A stretch of 64,000 nucleotides of DNA from the NCBI GenBank assembly GCA_947474395.1, contig CANJID010000002.1, positions 1 through 64,000 of the forward strand, in the 5' to 3' direction. Below the pieces are notes generated by a model. That model saw only the letters and a list, made by a program, of their open reading frames with translations, searched no databases and had not been told where the DNA came from. This document shows positions 47,105-54,759 of this stretch, piece after piece. How positions within the stretch are numbered: the first letter of the stretch is position 1; the number at the start of each line of letters is the position of its first letter. This stretch comes from Caulobacterales bacterium (lineage in GTDB: Bacteria > Pseudomonadota > Alphaproteobacteria > Caulobacterales > Caulobacteraceae). Made by a program: the position numbers and the translations under genes.

Positions 47105-47947
47105 CTAGCTTTCGACGAAGGCCTTAAACGCCTCGGCGTAGTCCGGATGCCAGCGCGACAGGGCGGGGCGGTTTTCGACGATGTCGCCGGCGGCCCAGAG
47201 GATGCGCTTCTCGTCGAGCCGGCGGTCCACGTCCCCGTCAGGGCACAGGATGTAGAAGTCGCCGCGGCCAAGGCTCTGCAGCATGAAGTCGATGGTCTGT
47301 TTAGGGGTCCAGGCCGCATCGGGCTTGTCGGCGCGGCCCCGCGAGGTCATGCCGGTGAAGACGAAGCCGGGGATCAGCAGGTGGGCGGATACCCGGCAGC
47401 CGTCGATGTTGCGCAGTTCGTGCGCCAGGGCCTCGGTATAGGCTTTCACCCCGGACTTGGAGACGTTGTAGGCGGGGTTTCCGGGCGGGGTGGTGATGCC
47501 CTGCTTGGAGCCGGTGTTGACGATCAGGCCCGGCCGGCCGCGCGCCGCCATGTCCGGCCCGAAGACCTGGCTCCCGAAGATGACGCCCCAGAGATTGACG
47601 GCGATCAGCCGCTCCCAGGCCTCGGCGGCGCCGAACGCGTTGGTCTCCGGCCCGCTGGCCGCGTTGTTCATCAGGACGTCGAGGCCGCCGAACCGGGCGT
47701 CCACGGAGGCCTTTACGGCGAGCAGCGCGGCTCTGTCCGAAACGTCGGCGGGGAAGACCTCGACCTCGGCCGTCGGCGCGCGACCCAGGATCTGCGCGCG
47801 GGCGGCCTCGAGCCGATCGCGGTCGAGATCGACCAGCGCCACGCGCAGGCCGCGTTCGGCGAACTGGGCGGCGGCTTCCAGGCCGATGCCGGAGGCTGCG
47901 CCGGTGACCAGGGCGACGGCGCCCGGCGCGATGGCGAGATGGGACAT
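47105..47947 (-). CDS. SDR-family dehydrogenase of the catabolic locus
   Basis: A 280-residue classical short-chain dehydrogenase. T15-GAASGIG binds NAD(P), NNAAS is the structural motif, and S147, Y160 and K164 (NTGSKQG, AYNVSK) form the catalytic set. Asp40 after the second strand (VALVDLDRDRL) suggests NAD preference. It runs away from the LysR gene and so probably belongs to the divergent regulatory unit next to the ring-cleavage genes. The substrate could be an alcohol or dihydrodiol intermediate, which the sequence does not settle. The ATG start has GAGGAGCC upstream. Confidence 0.92.
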   Translation of the reverse strand: MSHLAIAPGAVALVTGAASGIGLEAAAQFAERGLRVALVDLDRDRLEAARAQILGRAPTAEVEVFPADVSDRAALLAVKASVDARFGGLDVLMNNAASGPETNAFGAAEAWERLIAVNLWGVIFGSQVFGPDMAARGRPGLIVNTGSKQGITTPPGNPAYNVSKSGVKAYTEALAHELRNIDGCRVSAHLLIPGFVFTGMTSRGRADKPDAAWTPKQTIDFMLQSLGRGDFYILCPDGDVDRRLDEKRILWAAGDIVENRPALSRWHPDYAEAFKAFVES

Positions 47948-48017
47948 GCGGCGGCTCCTCAGGTAGGGCGACGCCTATCGACATAGCGGCCGTCGCGGCG
48001 ACCGGGAAGTTGCCATC

Positions 48018-48034
48018 TGACGCAATTGTCGTTG
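48018..48034. promoter_or_regulatory. candidate LysR operator
   Basis: The imperfect palindrome TGACGCAATTGTCGTTG, centred on CAATTG, lies in the SDR-LysR divergent intergenic region, about 40 bases from the LysR start. LysR regulators commonly bind such sites to control both their own gene and the divergent one. Nearby CTAT-CGAC-ATAG (about 47972) is another candidate. Confidence 0.4.
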
Positions 48035-48071
48035 TCCTGCGGACCTATTCACGCCGTCGATGGGATGCCGG

Positions 48072-49019
48072 ATGCGCTTCAAGGGCCTGGACCTCAATCT
48101 GCTGGTGGCCCTGGACGCCCTGCTGGAGACGCGCAGCGTCTCCGCAGCGGCCCGACGGGTCAACCTGAGCCAGCCGGCCATGAGCGCCGCCCTGGCGCGG
48201 CTGCGCGACTATTTCGATGACGACCTCCTGGTGGCGCACGGCAAGCGCATGATGCCGACCGCCCATGCGGAGTTGCTGGCGCCGCGCCTGAAGACGCAGC
48301 TGCGCGGCTTGGAGGGCTTGCTCACCAGCTCCGCCGGGTTCGAACCGGCGTCGGCGACGCGGACCTTTTCGATCATCGCCACCGACTACATCGCCGCCGT
48401 GGCGCTGGCGCCCCTGATGGCCGAATTGGCGACCGAGGCGCCCGGCCTCGGTCTGGAGATTCTCTCGCCCCATGACGACAGCGCCGAATTGCTGGCGCAG
48501 GGCAAGGTGGATCTGCTGATCACGCCGGACGCCTTCGTGCATCCCGACCATCCGGTCGAGCTGCTGTTCGAGGAGCGGCAGGTGCTGGTCGGCTGGAGCG
48601 GCAATCCGCTGTTCCAGCGCGGGTTCACCGAGGCGGACGTGTTCGCCTGCGGTCACGTGGCGGTGTCGTTCGGCCGCCAGCGGACGGCCTCCTTCGCCGA
48701 CCGGCAGCTGGCCCTTCAGGGCAAGGCGCGGCGCATCGAGGCGACGGCGCCGACCTTCATGGCCGTTCCCTGGTTCCTGCGGGGAACGGGGCGCGTCGCG
48801 TTCATGCACGAGCGGCTGGCGCGGGCCATGGCCGAGACCTTCCCCATCGCCATCGCCGAGATCCCTTTCGACTTCCCGGCCATGCGCGAGATGGTCCAGC
48901 ACCACCGTTCGCGTGGCGACGACGAGGGCCTGGCATGGCTGCGCCGCCGGATCGCCGAGGCCGCCAATCCATCGGTTGGGCAGATGGATATCGATCCAGA
49001 CAATAAGGTTTACAGATAA
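48072..49019 (+). CDS. NodD-like LysR transcriptional regulator
   Basis: A 315-residue LysR regulator. The N-terminus MRFKGLDLNLLVALDALLE, then VSAAARRVNLSQPAMSAALA and RLRDYFDDDLL, is very close in pattern to NodD-type regulators, which respond to flavonoids, and to the related FdeR and LinR groups. The C-terminal ligand domain (about residues 90-300) has no obvious feature that identifies the inducer. ATG 48072 gives the standard family start; ATG 48060 is four codons earlier. It sits between a divergent SDR gene and a five-gene catabolic set that it probably activates. Regulation by a flavonoid or aromatic inducer is an inference. Confidence 0.93.
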   Translation: MRFKGLDLNLLVALDALLETRSVSAAARRVNLSQPAMSAALARLRDYFDDDLLVAHGKRMMPTAHAELLAPRLKTQLRGLEGLLTSSAGFEPASATRTFSIIATDYIAAVALAPLMAELATEAPGLGLEILSPHDDSAELLAQGKVDLLITPDAFVHPDHPVELLFEERQVLVGWSGNPLFQRGFTEADVFACGHVAVSFGRQRTASFADRQLALQGKARRIEATAPTFMAVPWFLRGTGRVAFMHERLARAMAETFPIAIAEIPFDFPAMREMVQHHRSRGDDEGLAWLRRRIAEAANPSVGQMDIDPDNKVYR

Positions 49020-49065
49020 GTCCCCGCCGATAGCCTGCGCCTCCACCCGGCGGTTCGGAGGGGAC

Positions 49066-50181
49066 GTGAAGGCGGCGAACATCCTGGTCATCGGCGGCGG
49101 CATCGGCGGCCTCACGGCCGCGATCGCCCTGCGCCGCCGCGGCTTCTCCGTGGAGATCATCGAGAAGGACCCGGACTGGGCCGTCTATGGCGTGGGGATC
49201 ATCCAGCAGTCGAACGTGATCCGCGCCATGGCCGACCTCGGCCTGCTGGAGCAGTATCTCGGCGCGGCGTTCGGCTTCGACCACGTCGAGGTCTATCTGC
49301 CCGACGGCCGGCGCGCCGCCCGCATTCCCTCGCCGAAGCTGGTGGAGGGCCGCCCCGCCAACCTGGGAGTCTCGCGCCCCGCCCTGCACAAGGTGCTGGG
49401 CGACCGGGCCATCGCCGACGGCGCCAAGGTGCGGCTCGGTGTGACCGCCACCGCGCTCGACGACGACGGGCAAGGGGTGAACGTCAGCTTCAGCGACGGG
49501 ACCTCGGGCCGCTACGACCTCGTGGTGGGGGCCGACGGGGTGTTCTCGCAGACCCGGAGGGAGATCCTGCCCGAGGCGGCCGAGCCGGAGTTCACCGGCC
49601 AGTCGGTGTGGCGCTACAACTTCGCCCGGCCCGAGGCGGTGGACTGTCTGAGGGCCTACGACGGCCCGATCGGGATGGGGCTCGTGCCCCTCTCGGCCAG
49701 CCTCATGTACATGTACGTCACCACGGCGGAACCGGGGAACCCGCGCCATCCTCGCCAGGGCCTCGCCGCGGCGATGCGCGCCAGGCTGGAGCGCGCCCCC
49801 CCGGGGATCGCCGAGTACGTGGCGCAGATCACGGACGACGACGGGGTGGTCTACAAGCCGCAGGAGTGCGTCCTGGTCGAGGGCGACTGGCACAAGGGCC
49901 GCGTCGTCCTGCTGGGCGACGCGGTGCACGCGATCACGCCTCACCTCGGCGCCGGCGCCGGACTGGCGATCGAGGATGCCATCGTGCTGGCCGACGAGCT
50001 GGGCCGCGCCGAGACGCCCGAGGCCGCGTTCCGGGCATACCGGGAACGCCGCTACGAGCGCTGCGCCTTCACGGCCCGGATGTCGCGCGCCGTCTGCGAC
50101 GCCCAGCTGGGGAAGGGCCCGCCGGTGGACCAGGCAAAGCTCACCGGCCAGATGTTCGAGCTGATGGCGAGGCCGATCTGA
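49066..50181 (+). CDS. FAD-dependent aromatic monooxygenase
   Basis: A 371-residue group A flavoprotein monooxygenase. The dinucleotide fold is ILVIGGGIGGLTAAIALRRR, the DG motif is RYDLVVGADGVFSQTR, and the GD motif is VVLLGDAVHAITPHLGAGA. Such enzymes hydroxylate phenolic rings with NAD(P)H and oxygen, for example salicylate or 3-hydroxybenzoate hydroxylase, and FdeE in flavonoid breakdown. GTG 49066 has GGAGGGG close upstream. It is the first enzyme gene after the LysR regulator and is followed by an extradiol dioxygenase, which suggests that it prepares a catechol-like ring for cleavage. Confidence 0.9.
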   Translation: MKAANILVIGGGIGGLTAAIALRRRGFSVEIIEKDPDWAVYGVGIIQQSNVIRAMADLGLLEQYLGAAFGFDHVEVYLPDGRRAARIPSPKLVEGRPANLGVSRPALHKVLGDRAIADGAKVRLGVTATALDDDGQGVNVSFSDGTSGRYDLVVGADGVFSQTRREILPEAAEPEFTGQSVWRYNFARPEAVDCLRAYDGPIGMGLVPLSASLMYMYVTTAEPGNPRHPRQGLAAAMRARLERAPPGIAEYVAQITDDDGVVYKPQECVLVEGDWHKGRVVLLGDAVHAITPHLGAGAGLAIEDAIVLADELGRAETPEAAFRAYRERRYERCAFTARMSRAVCDAQLGKGPPVDQAKLTGQMFELMARPI

Positions 50182-50194
50182 TGGAGACCAACCG

Positions 50195-51097
50195 ATGAGC
50201 CGCGTGACCGAGATCCGCTACGTCGGCTACGCCCTGCCGGACCTGGACGTGGAGCGCGCCTTCTACCGCGACGTCTGGGGCATGACCGAAGCGGGCGAGC
50301 ATGACGGCATGATCCACTTCGCCGCGCCGGGGAGCGAGGAGCCATACGTGGTCCGCCTGCGCCGGGCCGAGCAAAAACGGGTGGACGTGATCGGCCTGGC
50401 GGCGGACAGCCGCGTGGACGTGGACGCGCTCCACGAGCGGGTCGCCGCCGCCGGCTGCAAAATCATCTTCGAACCACGGGCGCTCACCAGCCTCGGCGGG
50501 GGCTACGGCTTTCGCTTCTTCAGCCCGGACGGCCTGCCGTTCGAGACCTCCGCCGAGGTCGAGCGGGGCCAGGCGCGGCCGCTGCAGCGCTGGGAGGCCG
50601 CGCCCGAGCGGATCAGCCACGTCGTGCTGCACTCGCCGCGGCACAAGGAGGCGGTGCAGTTCTTCATCGAGGTGCTGGGCTTTCGCCTCAGCGACTGGAT
50701 CGGCGACTTCATGGCGTTCCTGCGGTGCAACGCCTGGCACCACCGGCTCGCCATCCTGCCGGGGCCGCCCTGCCTGAACCACGTCGCCTACGACCTGTCG
50801 GGGGTGGACGAGGTGATGCGCGGGTCGAGCCGTCTCAAGAGCCATGGCTTCGACGTGCGGTGGGGCCCTGGGCGCCACACCGCGGGCGACAATGTCTTCA
50901 GCTACTTCGTCACCCCCGGCGGCTTCGCGGTGGAATACACCGCCGGGCTGGAGCGGGTGGACGAGGCGACCTGGACGCCGCAGGTCTATCCCCCGACCCC
51001 GCAGGTCATGGACCAGTGGGGCGTCGGCGTCGGCGGCCCGCAGTCGATGCCGCAGCCCGCGCCCGATGCGGGCCTGTTCCAGCCCCCGGCCGCCTGA
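50195..51097 (+). CDS. type I extradiol ring-cleavage dioxygenase (VOC family)
   Basis: A 300-residue two-domain vicinal oxygen chelate protein. The iron facial triad is H142 (RISHVVLHSP), H196 (PCLNHVAYDL) and E247 (FAVEYTAGL), with spacing like that of BphC-type 2,3-dihydroxybiphenyl dioxygenases. It should cleave a catechol-type ring next to the hydroxyls. The C-terminal 50 residues after the triad are a Pro-rich extension. It follows the monooxygenase by 13 bases and precedes the alpha/beta hydrolase, the usual order of hydroxylation, cleavage and hydrolysis. FdeC of flavonoid degradation is a possible relative. Confidence 0.9.
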   Translation: MSRVTEIRYVGYALPDLDVERAFYRDVWGMTEAGEHDGMIHFAAPGSEEPYVVRLRRAEQKRVDVIGLAADSRVDVDALHERVAAAGCKIIFEPRALTSLGGGYGFRFFSPDGLPFETSAEVERGQARPLQRWEAAPERISHVVLHSPRHKEAVQFFIEVLGFRLSDWIGDFMAFLRCNAWHHRLAILPGPPCLNHVAYDLSGVDEVMRGSSRLKSHGFDVRWGPGRHTAGDNVFSYFVTPGGFAVEYTAGLERVDEATWTPQVYPPTPQVMDQWGVGVGGPQSMPQPAPDAGLFQPPAA

Positions 51098-51098
51098 C

Positions 51099-52268
51099 GT
51101 GGCGCTCTTCCAGTATTTCCCGAACAACTACATCTGGAACCTCTCGGTCGCGATCGCCCTGGAGAGCGGCGGCCGGATCGGCGAGATCGAGGAGATGTGC
51201 CGCCCCCTGCTGGAGGCGGCGGAGCGGGGCGAGGACGCGGGCACGCCCGAGTTCATGCGCCAGTGGGTGCTGATGGCCGACCGGCTGTCCGAGCTCGCGG
51301 GGGAGGACCTGGACCGGGGCCGCGGATATTCCGCCTCCGACAAGCTCAACCGCGCCAGCCTCTACTACCAGGTGGCCGAGCGGATGCAGGGCCTGGGGAC
51401 GCCGGGGCGCGAGGAGACCTATGCGAAGGCTCTGGACGCCTTCTCGCGGTCCGTGGCCGCCGGGCGGCGCAACTTCCGGCGGGTTGAGATCCCCTACGAA
51501 GGCGGGGTCATCGCGGGCTATTTCACCCAGGCCCAGGGCGCGTCGCTCCCGGCGCCGGTCGTGCTCTACGTGAACGGCCTGGATTCCACCAAGGAGATGC
51601 TGGCCTGGTCGAACCTGCCCGAAGCGCTGGCCCGGCGCGGGGTCTCGACCCTGTCCATCGATCAGCCCGGCACAGGCGAGGCGCTGCGGCGCGGAGGCCT
51701 GCACGCCGTCCACGACACCGAACGGTGGGCGTCCCCTGTAGTCGACTGGCTGGAGCGCCAGCCGGAGATCGATCCCAGGCGCATCGGCATGGGGGGGATA
51801 TCGCTGGGCGGCTACTTCGTTCCGCGCGCGGTCGCCAACGAGCCGCGCTTCGCCGCCGGCTTCGTCTGGGGCGCGAACCACGACTGGGGCGAGGTGCAGC
51901 AGGCGCGCCGCCGCAACGAGGGCGAGCGGCCGGTGCCGCACTACTGGAGCCACGTCGGCTGGGTCTGGGGCGCGCCGGACGTGGAGAGCTTCCTGGCGCT
52001 TTGCCCGAAGATCACCCTGGACGGACAGATGGAGAAAATCCGCGTCCCCTTCCTCGTCACCCACGGCGAGAAGGACCGGCAGATTCCGCTCAAATACGCC
52101 CAGCGCAGCTATGACCAGCTGACCAACAGCCCGAGGCGCGAGCTGAAGGTCTTCACCGCGCGCGAGGGCGGGGTCGAGCACGTCGGGGCCGACAACATGA
52201 GCTTCGCCTGCAGCTACATCGCCGACTGGGTCGCCGAGACCCTGGGCGGGCGCACGTCGCCAACATAG
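51099..52268 (+). CDS. alpha/beta hydrolase, probable C-C bond hydrolase
   Basis: A 389-residue alpha/beta hydrolase with a long N-terminal helical domain (MALFQYFPNNYIWNLSVAIA and the following ~130 residues). The catalytic triad fits S235 (GGISLGGYF), D326 (THGEKDRQIP) and H361 (EHVGADN). The helical N-terminus plus hydrolase core is the layout of FrsA/DUF1100 and 2,6-dihydropseudooxynicotine hydrolase, which break C-C bonds of ring-fission products. It lies directly behind the extradiol dioxygenase (GTG one base after its stop) and is therefore the likely hydrolase of the ring-cleavage product. Confidence 0.85.
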   Translation: MALFQYFPNNYIWNLSVAIALESGGRIGEIEEMCRPLLEAAERGEDAGTPEFMRQWVLMADRLSELAGEDLDRGRGYSASDKLNRASLYYQVAERMQGLGTPGREETYAKALDAFSRSVAAGRRNFRRVEIPYEGGVIAGYFTQAQGASLPAPVVLYVNGLDSTKEMLAWSNLPEALARRGVSTLSIDQPGTGEALRRGGLHAVHDTERWASPVVDWLERQPEIDPRRIGMGGISLGGYFVPRAVANEPRFAAGFVWGANHDWGEVQQARRRNEGERPVPHYWSHVGWVWGAPDVESFLALCPKITLDGQMEKIRVPFLVTHGEKDRQIPLKYAQRSYDQLTNSPRRELKVFTAREGGVEHVGADNMSFACSYIADWVAETLGGRTSPT

Positions 52269-52282
52269 GGGAGATGAGCCGC

Positions 52283-52852
52283 ATGGCCGCCGCACCGTTC
52301 CGCCGCATCGTCACCGGCCACGACGCCGACGGCCGGGCCGTGATCCTTGAGGACGCCCCGCCGCCCCGCGTGGTGCGTATCGGCGGCGAGATGGGGCCGC
52401 TGTTCTATGAGATCTGGAACACCCGCGAGACTCCGGCGCGCATCGACCGGGCTTCGGGCGAGCCTGCCGAGGCGGGCGTCCAGCTCGCCCCGCCGAAGAA
52501 CGGCACGCGCATCCGCGTGCTCGACATCCCTCCAGAGGGCGACGAGGTGGCGAGCCTCACGCCCGAGCAGGCGCGCGCGCATTTCGCCGAGGTGGGTGCG
52601 GCCGACGCCTCGGCGCACGCGCGCGGCGGGGGGGCTCGGCACGCCTTCATGCACCGCACCGAGACCGTCGACTACGGCATCGTCCTGGAAGGCGAGGTGG
52701 TCCTGATCATGGACGAAGGCGAGACCATCGCCCGCGCCGGCGACATCGTCATCCAGCGCGGCACGAACCACGGCTGGGCCAACCGGTCGGACCGCAACTG
52801 CCGGATCGTCTTCGTCCTGATCGACGGCGAGTTCGACCCGGATCTGGCCTGA
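52283..52852 (+). CDS. cupin-domain protein
   Basis: A 189-residue protein with a single cupin fold in the C-terminal half: RTETVDYGIVLEGEVVLIMD is motif 1 and GDIVIQRGTNHGWANRSDRN is motif 2. The upstream half is a linked, poorly conserved beta domain. Similar cupins occur beside monooxygenase and extradiol genes in aromatic catabolic clusters, where they can act as isomerases or dioxygenases; the reaction here is unknown. The ribosome binding site GGGGAG lies nine bases before ATG 52283, so I prefer that start to ATG 52274. It follows the hydrolase by 14 bases. Confidence 0.85.
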   Translation: MAAAPFRRIVTGHDADGRAVILEDAPPPRVVRIGGEMGPLFYEIWNTRETPARIDRASGEPAEAGVQLAPPKNGTRIRVLDIPPEGDEVASLTPEQARAHFAEVGAADASAHARGGGARHAFMHRTETVDYGIVLEGEVVLIMDEGETIARAGDIVIQRGTNHGWANRSDRNCRIVFVLIDGEFDPDLA

Positions 52853-52883
52853 CCGGCGGCTGTGTGAAGGGGAGCGCGGCGCC

Positions 52884-53858
52884 ATGAAACTCGCGACCCT
52901 GCCGGGCCCGACGCCCGACGGAGAGCTCGTGATCGTCTCGCGCGACCTGTCGCGAGCCGCTCCCGCCCGGACCATCGCCGCCACCTTGCAGGACGCGCTC
53001 GACCGCTGGGCGGTGGTCGAGCCGCGGCTCAGGCAGATGGCGGAGGCGTTGGAGGCGGGGCAGGTCGCCGGCGAAATCCCCTTCGATCCCGCGACGGCGC
53101 TGGCGCCCCTGCCGCGCGCCTATCAGTGGCTCGACGGCTCCGTCTATCCCTCGCACGGGGCGCTGATGCAGAAGGCGCTCGGGCATGACCCGATCGAGAC
53201 CAACCGGCCCCTGATGTACCAGGGCCTGTCGCACCGGTTCCTGGGTCCGACGGAGGATGTCCTCCTGCCCGACGAGGCGGACGGCATCGACTTCGAAGGC
53301 GAGTTCGGCGTGATCACCGACGCGGTCCCCATGGGCATGTCGGCGCGGGAGGCCCGCGCCCACATCCGCCTGATCGTCCAGATCAACGACTGGAGCCTGC
53401 GCGCCCTGGCCCCCCTCGAGTTCGGCACGGGGTTCGGCTTCGTTCAGGCCAAGCCCGCCTGCAGCATGGCGCCCGTGGCCGTCACGCCCGACGAACTCGG
53501 CGTGGCCTGGCGGGATGCGCGCGTACATCTGCCGCTGCGGGTCTGGTGGAACGGCGAGCTGTTCGGCAGGCCGGACGGCGGGGCCATGGCGTTCGGCTTC
53601 GACGATCTCGTCGCCCACGCCGCGCGCACCCGCGATCTCTGCGCCGGCACGATCATCGGCTCGGGCACAGTGTCGAACGAGACCTATCGCGAGGTCGGCT
53701 CGGCCTGCATCGCCGAACGGCGCGGCCTGGAGACCGTCGACCATGGCGCGCCGAGGACGGAATTCATGCGCTTCGGCGACACCGTCCGGATGGAGGCCGG
53801 CCGTCCCGGGGACTCCCCGCTGCTCGGCGCAATCGAGCAGCGGGTGGTGCGCGGGTGA
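52884..53858 (+). CDS. fumarylacetoacetate hydrolase family protein
   Basis: A 324-residue FAH-fold enzyme. The metal ligands fit the E-x-E of GIDFEGEFGVITD and the Asp of VQINDWSLR, with GTGFGFVQAKPACSMAP and AGTIIGSGTVSNET around the active site. FAH-type enzymes act as hydrolases, hydratases or decarboxylases on 2-oxo acids made by ring cleavage, so it would serve as a late step after the alpha/beta hydrolase. The N-terminal 80 residues are a smaller domain, as in long FAH proteins. It is the last gene of the plus-strand cluster and is convergent with a secreted-protein gene, seven bases away. Confidence 0.92.
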   Translation: MKLATLPGPTPDGELVIVSRDLSRAAPARTIAATLQDALDRWAVVEPRLRQMAEALEAGQVAGEIPFDPATALAPLPRAYQWLDGSVYPSHGALMQKALGHDPIETNRPLMYQGLSHRFLGPTEDVLLPDEADGIDFEGEFGVITDAVPMGMSAREARAHIRLIVQINDWSLRALAPLEFGTGFGFVQAKPACSMAPVAVTPDELGVAWRDARVHLPLRVWWNGELFGRPDGGAMAFGFDDLVAHAARTRDLCAGTIIGSGTVSNETYREVGSACIAERRGLETVDHGAPRTEFMRFGDTVRMEAGRPGDSPLLGAIEQRVVRG

Positions 53859-53865
53859 GCCCCGC

Positions 53866-54759
53866 CTACTGAGGATCCGACGAGGGCCAGCCCCGCTGGG
53901 TCGCGACCGGCAGGATGGGGAAGAAGGCCAGGATGGAGTGGATCTGGTCGCCCCAGGTCTTGAACGCCTCGAAGGTCACCAGGGCGTTGCCGGCCCCGTA
54001 GGAGTTGGTGTCGCCGAAGTTCATCCACAGCAGCACCGTGCCGTTCTCCTCGTCCACGGCGGCGACGCTGGCCTTCACGTCCGGGTGCACGATGATCTTC
54101 TGCTCGTACATGCCGCAGGTCGCGCCGGCCCGGCAGCCCACGCCCGCCGTGATCACGCCGTTCTCGACGCGGTAGGTTTCCGTGGCAAAGGGGGTCTTGC
54201 CCGTCGTGAAATTGCCGATCCGCAGGCCCTCGGGATAGGTGAGGGCGGTCTTGATCATCGAGGCGCGCGACTGCTTCTTGCCCGCAGGGATCGGATCGTT
54301 CATGCCCCGGATCGGGCCGCCGAGCTGGTCCGGCTGGAAGCGGGACTCCGGCGTGATGCGCTGGACCAGGGTCTCGACGCCGGCGATCCTGGCGCCCTGC
54401 ATGTGCAGCAGCACCGAATAGAGAAGCTGGTTCTTTCCTTCCGGGAACACCACGTGGGCGGCGGCGATCTGCGCCTTGGTGTCGAGGTAGTCCTGGCGGA
54501 AGGTGGCCTTGCCGGTGACGGTCTTCCAGAGACCGTCGCCCAGCTTGGCGGTTTGCGAGTTCTCGGTGACGCGGGCGCCCGCCACGAGGGGCAGCTTGCC
54601 GGCGTCATGCGCCGCCACCGCGTCGATGTACTGGGTGATCATCCCGCCCAGGCAGGCCCGGTTGCAGGCGGCCGTCGCCGCGGAGGCGGGCGACAGGCTC
54701 CCCAGGGCCAGAACGGAACCGACAGCTGCGAGCGCGAGGGCGCGACGACCTGAAAGCAC
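53866..54759 (-). CDS. secreted protein, possibly DUF8021 family
   Basis: A 297-residue protein with a Tat- or Sec-type signal peptide (LSGRRALALAAVGSVLALGS, cleavage after ASA). The mature start ACNRACLGGMITQYIDAVAA followed by HDAGKLPLVAGARVTENSQT and AKLGDGLW is the pattern of a secreted family with four conserved Cys that is often found near catabolic genes, probably DUF8021. A GRRALALAA Tat-like twin-Arg is a possible feature. Function is unknown. GTG 54759 has GGGAGG before it, which decides the start over ATG 54837. It ends seven bases from the FAH gene, so it may belong to the same locus. Confidence 0.75.
   Translation of the reverse strand: MLSGRRALALAAVGSVLALGSLSPASAATAACNRACLGGMITQYIDAVAAHDAGKLPLVAGARVTENSQTAKLGDGLWKTVTGKATFRQDYLDTKAQIAAAHVVFPEGKNQLLYSVLLHMQGARIAGVETLVQRITPESRFQPDQLGGPIRGMNDPIPAGKKQSRASMIKTALTYPEGLRIGNFTTGKTPFATETYRVENGVITAGVGCRAGATCGMYEQKIIVHPDVKASVAAVDEENGTVLLWMNFGDTNSYGAGNALVTFEAFKTWGDQIHSILAFFPILPVATQRGWPSSDPQ

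Follow-up and report, generated by a model that had tools for sequence, protein, structure and literature searches.

For very few pathways that cleave flavonoid rings have the genes been identified, the described cases being the fde operon of Herbaspirillum seropedicae SmR1 and the ifc cluster of Variovorax sp. V35. In ifc, the FAD monooxygenase (FMO) IfcA, whose substrates are isoflavones only, serves as isoflavone 8-hydroxylase, the FdeC-like VOC enzyme IfcB (65.8% identical to FdeC) opens the ring, a DHPON-hydrolase-like alpha/beta hydrolase is encoded nearby, and the cupins IfcD1/D2 act on a pyranone (PMC11069340). How does the locus described here, a LysR regulator followed by an FMO, a VOC-type dioxygenase, an alpha/beta hydrolase, a cupin and an FAH-family enzyme in a Caulobacterales genome, compare with these systems? 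Its genes lie at positions 47105-53858 of a 64,000-nt window (the whole stretch of DNA that was analysed) of contig CANJID010000002.1, and we lean towards regarding it as a variant, found in Alphaproteobacteria, of the fde/ifc-type operons that cleave the A ring of flavonoid-like polyphenols. Because its LysR, FMO and VOC proteins fall into separate clades and the Rieske protein FdeD is absent, it is a distinct variant working like fde/ifc and not an fde operon; judged from sequence, its function as a pathway of the fde/ifc kind is probable and a flavonoid-like substrate likely. An earlier note on this DNA, which had likened the locus to fde-type naringenin degradation, is hence partly supported. 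In what follows, ‘fde-type’ denotes loci from Burkholderiales, including three from Herbaspirillum sp., together with the published gene content; a genome scan with an FdeC-type enzyme yielded 80 such loci.

The module is real and conserved. Close relatives of its dioxygenase turned up in 5/385 genomes of the class and in 12/390 genomes of the window's own family (the window being counted in both), as well as on sphingomonad plasmids. The arrangement LysR-FMO-VOC-hydrolase-(cupin/cyclase/epimerase)-FAH recurs, with variation, in 19 alphaproteobacterial loci from sphingomonads and the window's family, the window included; dioxygenase, hydrolase and FAH are present in all 19, the FMO in 18, a homologous LysR in 16, the cupin in 15, the cyclase in 11 and the epimerase in nine, and a TonB receptor is usual. 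Identities between the window and these modules are 65% for the hydrolase, 64% for FAH, 60% for the cupin, 50% for LysR, 64% for the FMO and 66% for the VOC. This gene set is lacking from more distant VOC loci, taken as a control, apart from portions of it in Novosphingobium EMRT-2 and Polymorphobacter. Moreover, a second five-enzyme operon resides in the same genome on contig C21 (74, 75, 80, 81 and 70% identical to the window copy for FMO, VOC, hydrolase, cupin and FAH, respectively). Recurrence in 19 loci together with this second copy argues that the gene set is not due to chance. No LysR belonging to the C21 operon was found, from which we infer that a single regulator may serve both operons. 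In the literature searched, no paper on sphingomonad flavonoid gene clusters was found, so that the alphaproteobacterial module is conserved yet undescribed there. The features of the window copy are as follows.

47105..47947, minus strand: SDR-family dehydrogenase (Pfam adh_short), a divergent neighbour, probably outside the module
47948..48059, no strand: intergenic region of 112 bases between the divergent SDR and LysR genes, probable LysR promoter (from the sequence)
48060..49019, plus strand: NodD/FdeR-clade LysR regulator, 319 aa, probable operon activator (Pfam HTH_1 and LysR_substrate)
48971..48985, plus strand: nod-box-like core ATC-N9-GAT, a weak candidate operator within the LysR 3' end, upstream of the FMO gene (pattern search)
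49066..50181, plus strand: group A FAD monooxygenase, probable ring hydroxylase, 371 aa, GTG start (FAD_binding_3; NCBIfam PRK06847)
50195..51097, plus strand: type I extradiol dioxygenase of the VOC fold, two domains, H142/H196/E247 (Pfam; residue check)
51099..52268, plus strand: alpha/beta hydrolase with a helical N-terminal region and S235/D326/H361, related to C-C bond hydrolases (PDB relatives)
52283..52852, plus strand: cupin with ATG at 52283 or 52274 (Cupin_2), a relative of the fde-type cupin and probably of IfcD
52884..53858, plus strand: FAH-family enzyme with an FAA_hydro_N_2 domain (Pfam; match to 3lzk at 315 bits)

The Pfam scores of all genes exceed the cut-off, and the earlier note had placed all seven genes correctly, along with their domains and the catalytic residues that it named (Pfam, residue index check). 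From LysR through FAH, successive gaps measure 46, 13, 1, 5-14 and 31 bases; with 46 bases between LysR and the FMO gene and 1-31 bases between the enzyme genes, LysR to FAH can form one transcription unit. A longer GTG open reading frame for the FMO, from 48913, overlaps LysR, and homologues favour the 371-aa form. The SDR, which had been counted as a member of the set, was rejected as part of the unit: it is divergent and not conserved, its best match in the other modules being ~34% identical and no orthologue. Directly downstream of FAH, a convergent gene (53866-54759, minus strand) encodes a protein of ~300 aa without a Pfam match.

The NodD-likeness that had been noticed in the first 40 residues of LysR extends over its full length. 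The protein is 40-43% identical to NodD, with which rhizobia perceive plant flavonoids, and it is the only match in this genome, and a reciprocal one, of Rhizobium leguminosarum NodD1 (43%); among solved ligand-binding domains, the nearest is 9x6w/9iib, which shares 96% identity with that same NodD1. In the LysR tree, a larger clade unites the window LysR, NodD and the fde-type LysRs (SH-aLRT 97), with DntR outside, a grouping on which the earlier note's proposal had been made to depend; with few outgroups and weak inner branches, this tree leaves the relative nearness to NodD versus FdeR undecided. Within it, and by contrast with NodD, the window LysR sits in an operon-linked clade of its own with sphingomonad LysRs (support 99) and is tied to catabolism rather than to nod genes. 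Nod-box-like cores near the operon add to the likeness: ATC-N9-GAT lies upstream of LysR in 7/16 modules, where 1.6 would be expected, upstream of the FMO gene in 9/18 (expectation 1.5) and, among fde-type loci, upstream of LysR in 29/65 (expectation 6.3), with 0/200 shuffles as high in each case, counts that, since related loci are not independent, are to be read as supporting evidence only. The core was not found in the window's own SDR-LysR intergenic region, and a search for a long palindromic dyad common to all LysR promoters found none, the ATC-N9-GAT core alone being enriched. With this module, a NodD-like sensor is available from bacteria other than rhizobia, and the relation between NodD and catabolic flavonoid sensors becomes testable.

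What do the two front-end enzymes say about the substrate? The FMO carries the GxGxxG, DG and GD motifs of group A enzymes (here GGGIGG, ADG and GDAVHAITPHLGAG) on one FAD_binding_3 domain and scores above the cut-off of NCBIfam PRK06847, and the dioxygenase has the two VOC domains and the 2-His-1-Glu iron site of the extradiol type I, H142 and H196 being invariant in 55/55 aligned dioxygenases and E247 present in 54 of them. An FMO, an extradiol enzyme, a hydrolase and FAH form a generic set in meta-cleavage pathways. The locus matches that set, as would an operon for meta-cleavage of simple phenols or catechols (hydroxybiphenyl or hydroxyphenylpropionate type) under an unrelated regulator; we nevertheless regard such an operon as very improbable, given that the dioxygenase scores ~90 bits with the NCBIfam models for catechol 2,3-dioxygenase, HpaD and BphC, far under their cut-offs of 320-366, that the hydrolase has its nearest PDB relatives in the Ayg1-like 8qd7 and the DHPON hydrolase 2jbw and not in BphD/MhpC types, and that the regulator is NodD-like.

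The dioxygenase tree places the FdeC group in one clade (support 100) on a long branch and the window enzyme in another (97), which includes PDB 3b59 and has its nearer neighbours among other VOC enzymes, FdeC being more remote; with ~31% identity, the enzyme was rejected as an FdeC orthologue, and it is likewise in another clade than the FdeC-type IfcB. The closest solved structure, 3b59 (443 bits, full-length), which we take to be from Novosphingobium aromaticivorans, is a structural-genomics type entry without substrate or operon function in the sources consulted. In the FMO tree, too, the window clade (support 100 for its main 15 rows) is separate from the one holding the fde FMOs (98). 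In two loci (L021, L022), the dioxygenase is of the window type but the hydroxylase belongs to the fde side of the FMO tree, implying that the front end is swappable.

Could the locus nonetheless be fde proper, with every gene orthologous to its counterpart in the naringenin operon of H. seropedicae? LysR, FMO, VOC, hydrolase, cupin and FAH are in common, with a NodD-like LysR adjoining the enzyme genes, FMO and VOC enzymes of the same superfamilies, and a related DHPON-type hydrolase, FAH and cupin. In the 80-locus scan, fde-type loci run hydrolase, VOC, Rieske, FMO, MFS, cyclase, cupin, FAH and epimerase, with a divergent LysR that matches the published fdeR-fdeA arrangement; plasmids of Burkholderia anthina and Diaphorobacter show the same order of enzyme genes, B. 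anthina adding a LysR and a transporter upstream. The window LysR, by contrast, lies on the same strand as the enzymes; a homologue of the Rieske protein FdeD, found in 76/80 fde-type loci, is present in 0/19 alphaproteobacterial modules, the window included, and the same holds for porin or MFS homologues. Median identities to 11-12 fde-type loci are 58% for the hydrolase, 59% for FAH, 48% for the cupin, 39% for LysR, 38% for the FMO and 31% for the VOC. The likeness to fde holds for the NodD-like character of the regulator and for the hydrolase, FAH and cupin; it fails for the FMO and dioxygenase, which are in separate clades, and for FdeD. Both the dioxygenase tree and the lack of FdeD contradict full orthology to fde, which is scarcely credible. 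The window unit equally shares with ifc an FMO, VOC, DHPON-hydrolase-like hydrolase and cupin clustered with regulators and transporters; the window unit is smaller, with LysR directly ahead in the same orientation, and its VOC is not of the FdeC type. The cupin is 49% identical to a Variovorax legume-root cupin. The suggestion that the cupin and FAH steps might be new has to be dropped, as both are already known from fde-type loci and, for cupins, from ifc, where IfcD1/D2 have been characterised (PMC11069340).

Several points weigh against a flavonoid-cleaving variant of fde/ifc. Besides the position of the FMO and dioxygenase outside the fde FMO and FdeC clades and the want of an FdeD homologue, Herbaspirillum-type FdeE finds its best match in this genome not in the window but in another FMO, encoded on C21 (45% versus 40% for the window FMO), and H. 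seropedicae itself is not among the 80 loci that stand for fde here. A related hydrolase gene in Variovorax is dispensable for daidzein loss (PMC11069340), and no induction or enzyme data on the module were found. It is conceivable, if somewhat unlikely, that the substrate is a different phenolic, bicyclic or with fused rings (a xanthone, a coumarin, a lignan- or lignin-derived aromatic, a polyketide) and that the module's likeness to fde reflects shared downstream chemistry only. The hydroxylase and dioxygenase, which set the substrate, belong to clades other than those of fde, the hydroxylase is exchanged in L021/L022 next to the same dioxygenase, 3b59 gives no substrate, and sphingomonads degrade many aromatics; on the other hand, the regulator groups with NodD and FdeR-type proteins, the cupin and FAH that act after ring opening stay conserved, and C-glycoside deglycosidase genes beside one copy (see below) point to polyphenol glycosides.

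Under the favoured reading, an fde/ifc-like variant acting on flavonoid-like polyphenols, the sequences themselves establish gene content, catalytic residues, homology, conservation of the module and clades, and the substrate, regiochemistry, step order and induction in the following scheme are proposals. The NodD/FdeR-clade LysR would bind a plant phenolic and activate the operon, whereupon the FMO would hydroxylate the phenolic ring adjacent to an OH group (position 8 in fde and ifc) to give a catechol, which the iron dioxygenase would open between the diol and the neighbouring carbon. After ring opening, the alpha/beta hydrolase, FAH and cupin would cleave C-C bonds of the product, giving a short 2,4-dioxo acid (C4, suiting FAH) and a pyranone or aryl fragment (suiting the cupin, cf. 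IfcD). The proposed order, by analogy with ifc, is hydroxylation, extradiol cleavage, C-C cleavage to pyranone and C4 acid, and cupin/FAH steps; from family chemistry, we infer that FAH takes an acylpyruvate-like C4 fragment.

The surroundings of two copies bear on the question of glycosides. On a plasmid of Sphingobium sp. TomTYG65 (L015), the module adjoins a C-glycoside deglycosidase beta subunit (PF19906), a Gfo/Idh oxidoreductase, a TIM-barrel AP_endonuc_2 protein and GH3, which suggests that deglycosylation is coupled to ring cleavage. The second operon on C21 is borne by a 55-kb catabolic island (L020, L142, L143) with two PQQ dehydrogenases, GH2, a 3-keto-disaccharide hydrolase domain, a TonB receptor and a GCV_T protein. 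The island also encodes a third FMO, next to a DHPON-like hydrolase and a LigB-type dioxygenase, and a resolvase lies near one end. PF19906 had no match in this genome, but the control search also matched nowhere, so its absence is not established. Both contexts fit catabolism of plant phenolic glycosides without proving it.

A Novosphingobium isolate from bark-beetle galleries degrades naringenin through genes that were not identified (PMC6064089), and other members of this genus, among them Novosphingobium pentaromativorans US6-1 (L018), carry the module, the genes of which are testable candidates for that activity. Perhaps, then, this is an independently assembled alphaproteobacterial pathway for ring cleavage of flavonoids or flavonoid glycosides, with dioxygenase and hydroxylase clades of its own, fde-like downstream enzymes and a NodD-type sensor, and is the basis of naringenin degradation by Novosphingobium, a proposal that we put forward tentatively. 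If true, this reading would point to NodD as a member of an older family of regulators of flavonoid catabolism. Roots are a common habitat of sphingomonads, and the module is a candidate route for polyphenol use by some of them.

Two observations concern fde-type genes on other plasmids. In Roseomonas mucosa HV1, a human-skin isolate, the plasmid-borne fde-type cluster (L054) seems partly broken, with a short FMO fragment and an unannotated VOC, and other R. mucosa plasmids have longer VOC matches. A plasmid of Bradyrhizobium japonicum USDA 135, from a soybean nodule, carries an FdeC-type dioxygenase, a Rieske protein, an FMO, a cupin and a LysR amid insertion sequences (L053, L055).

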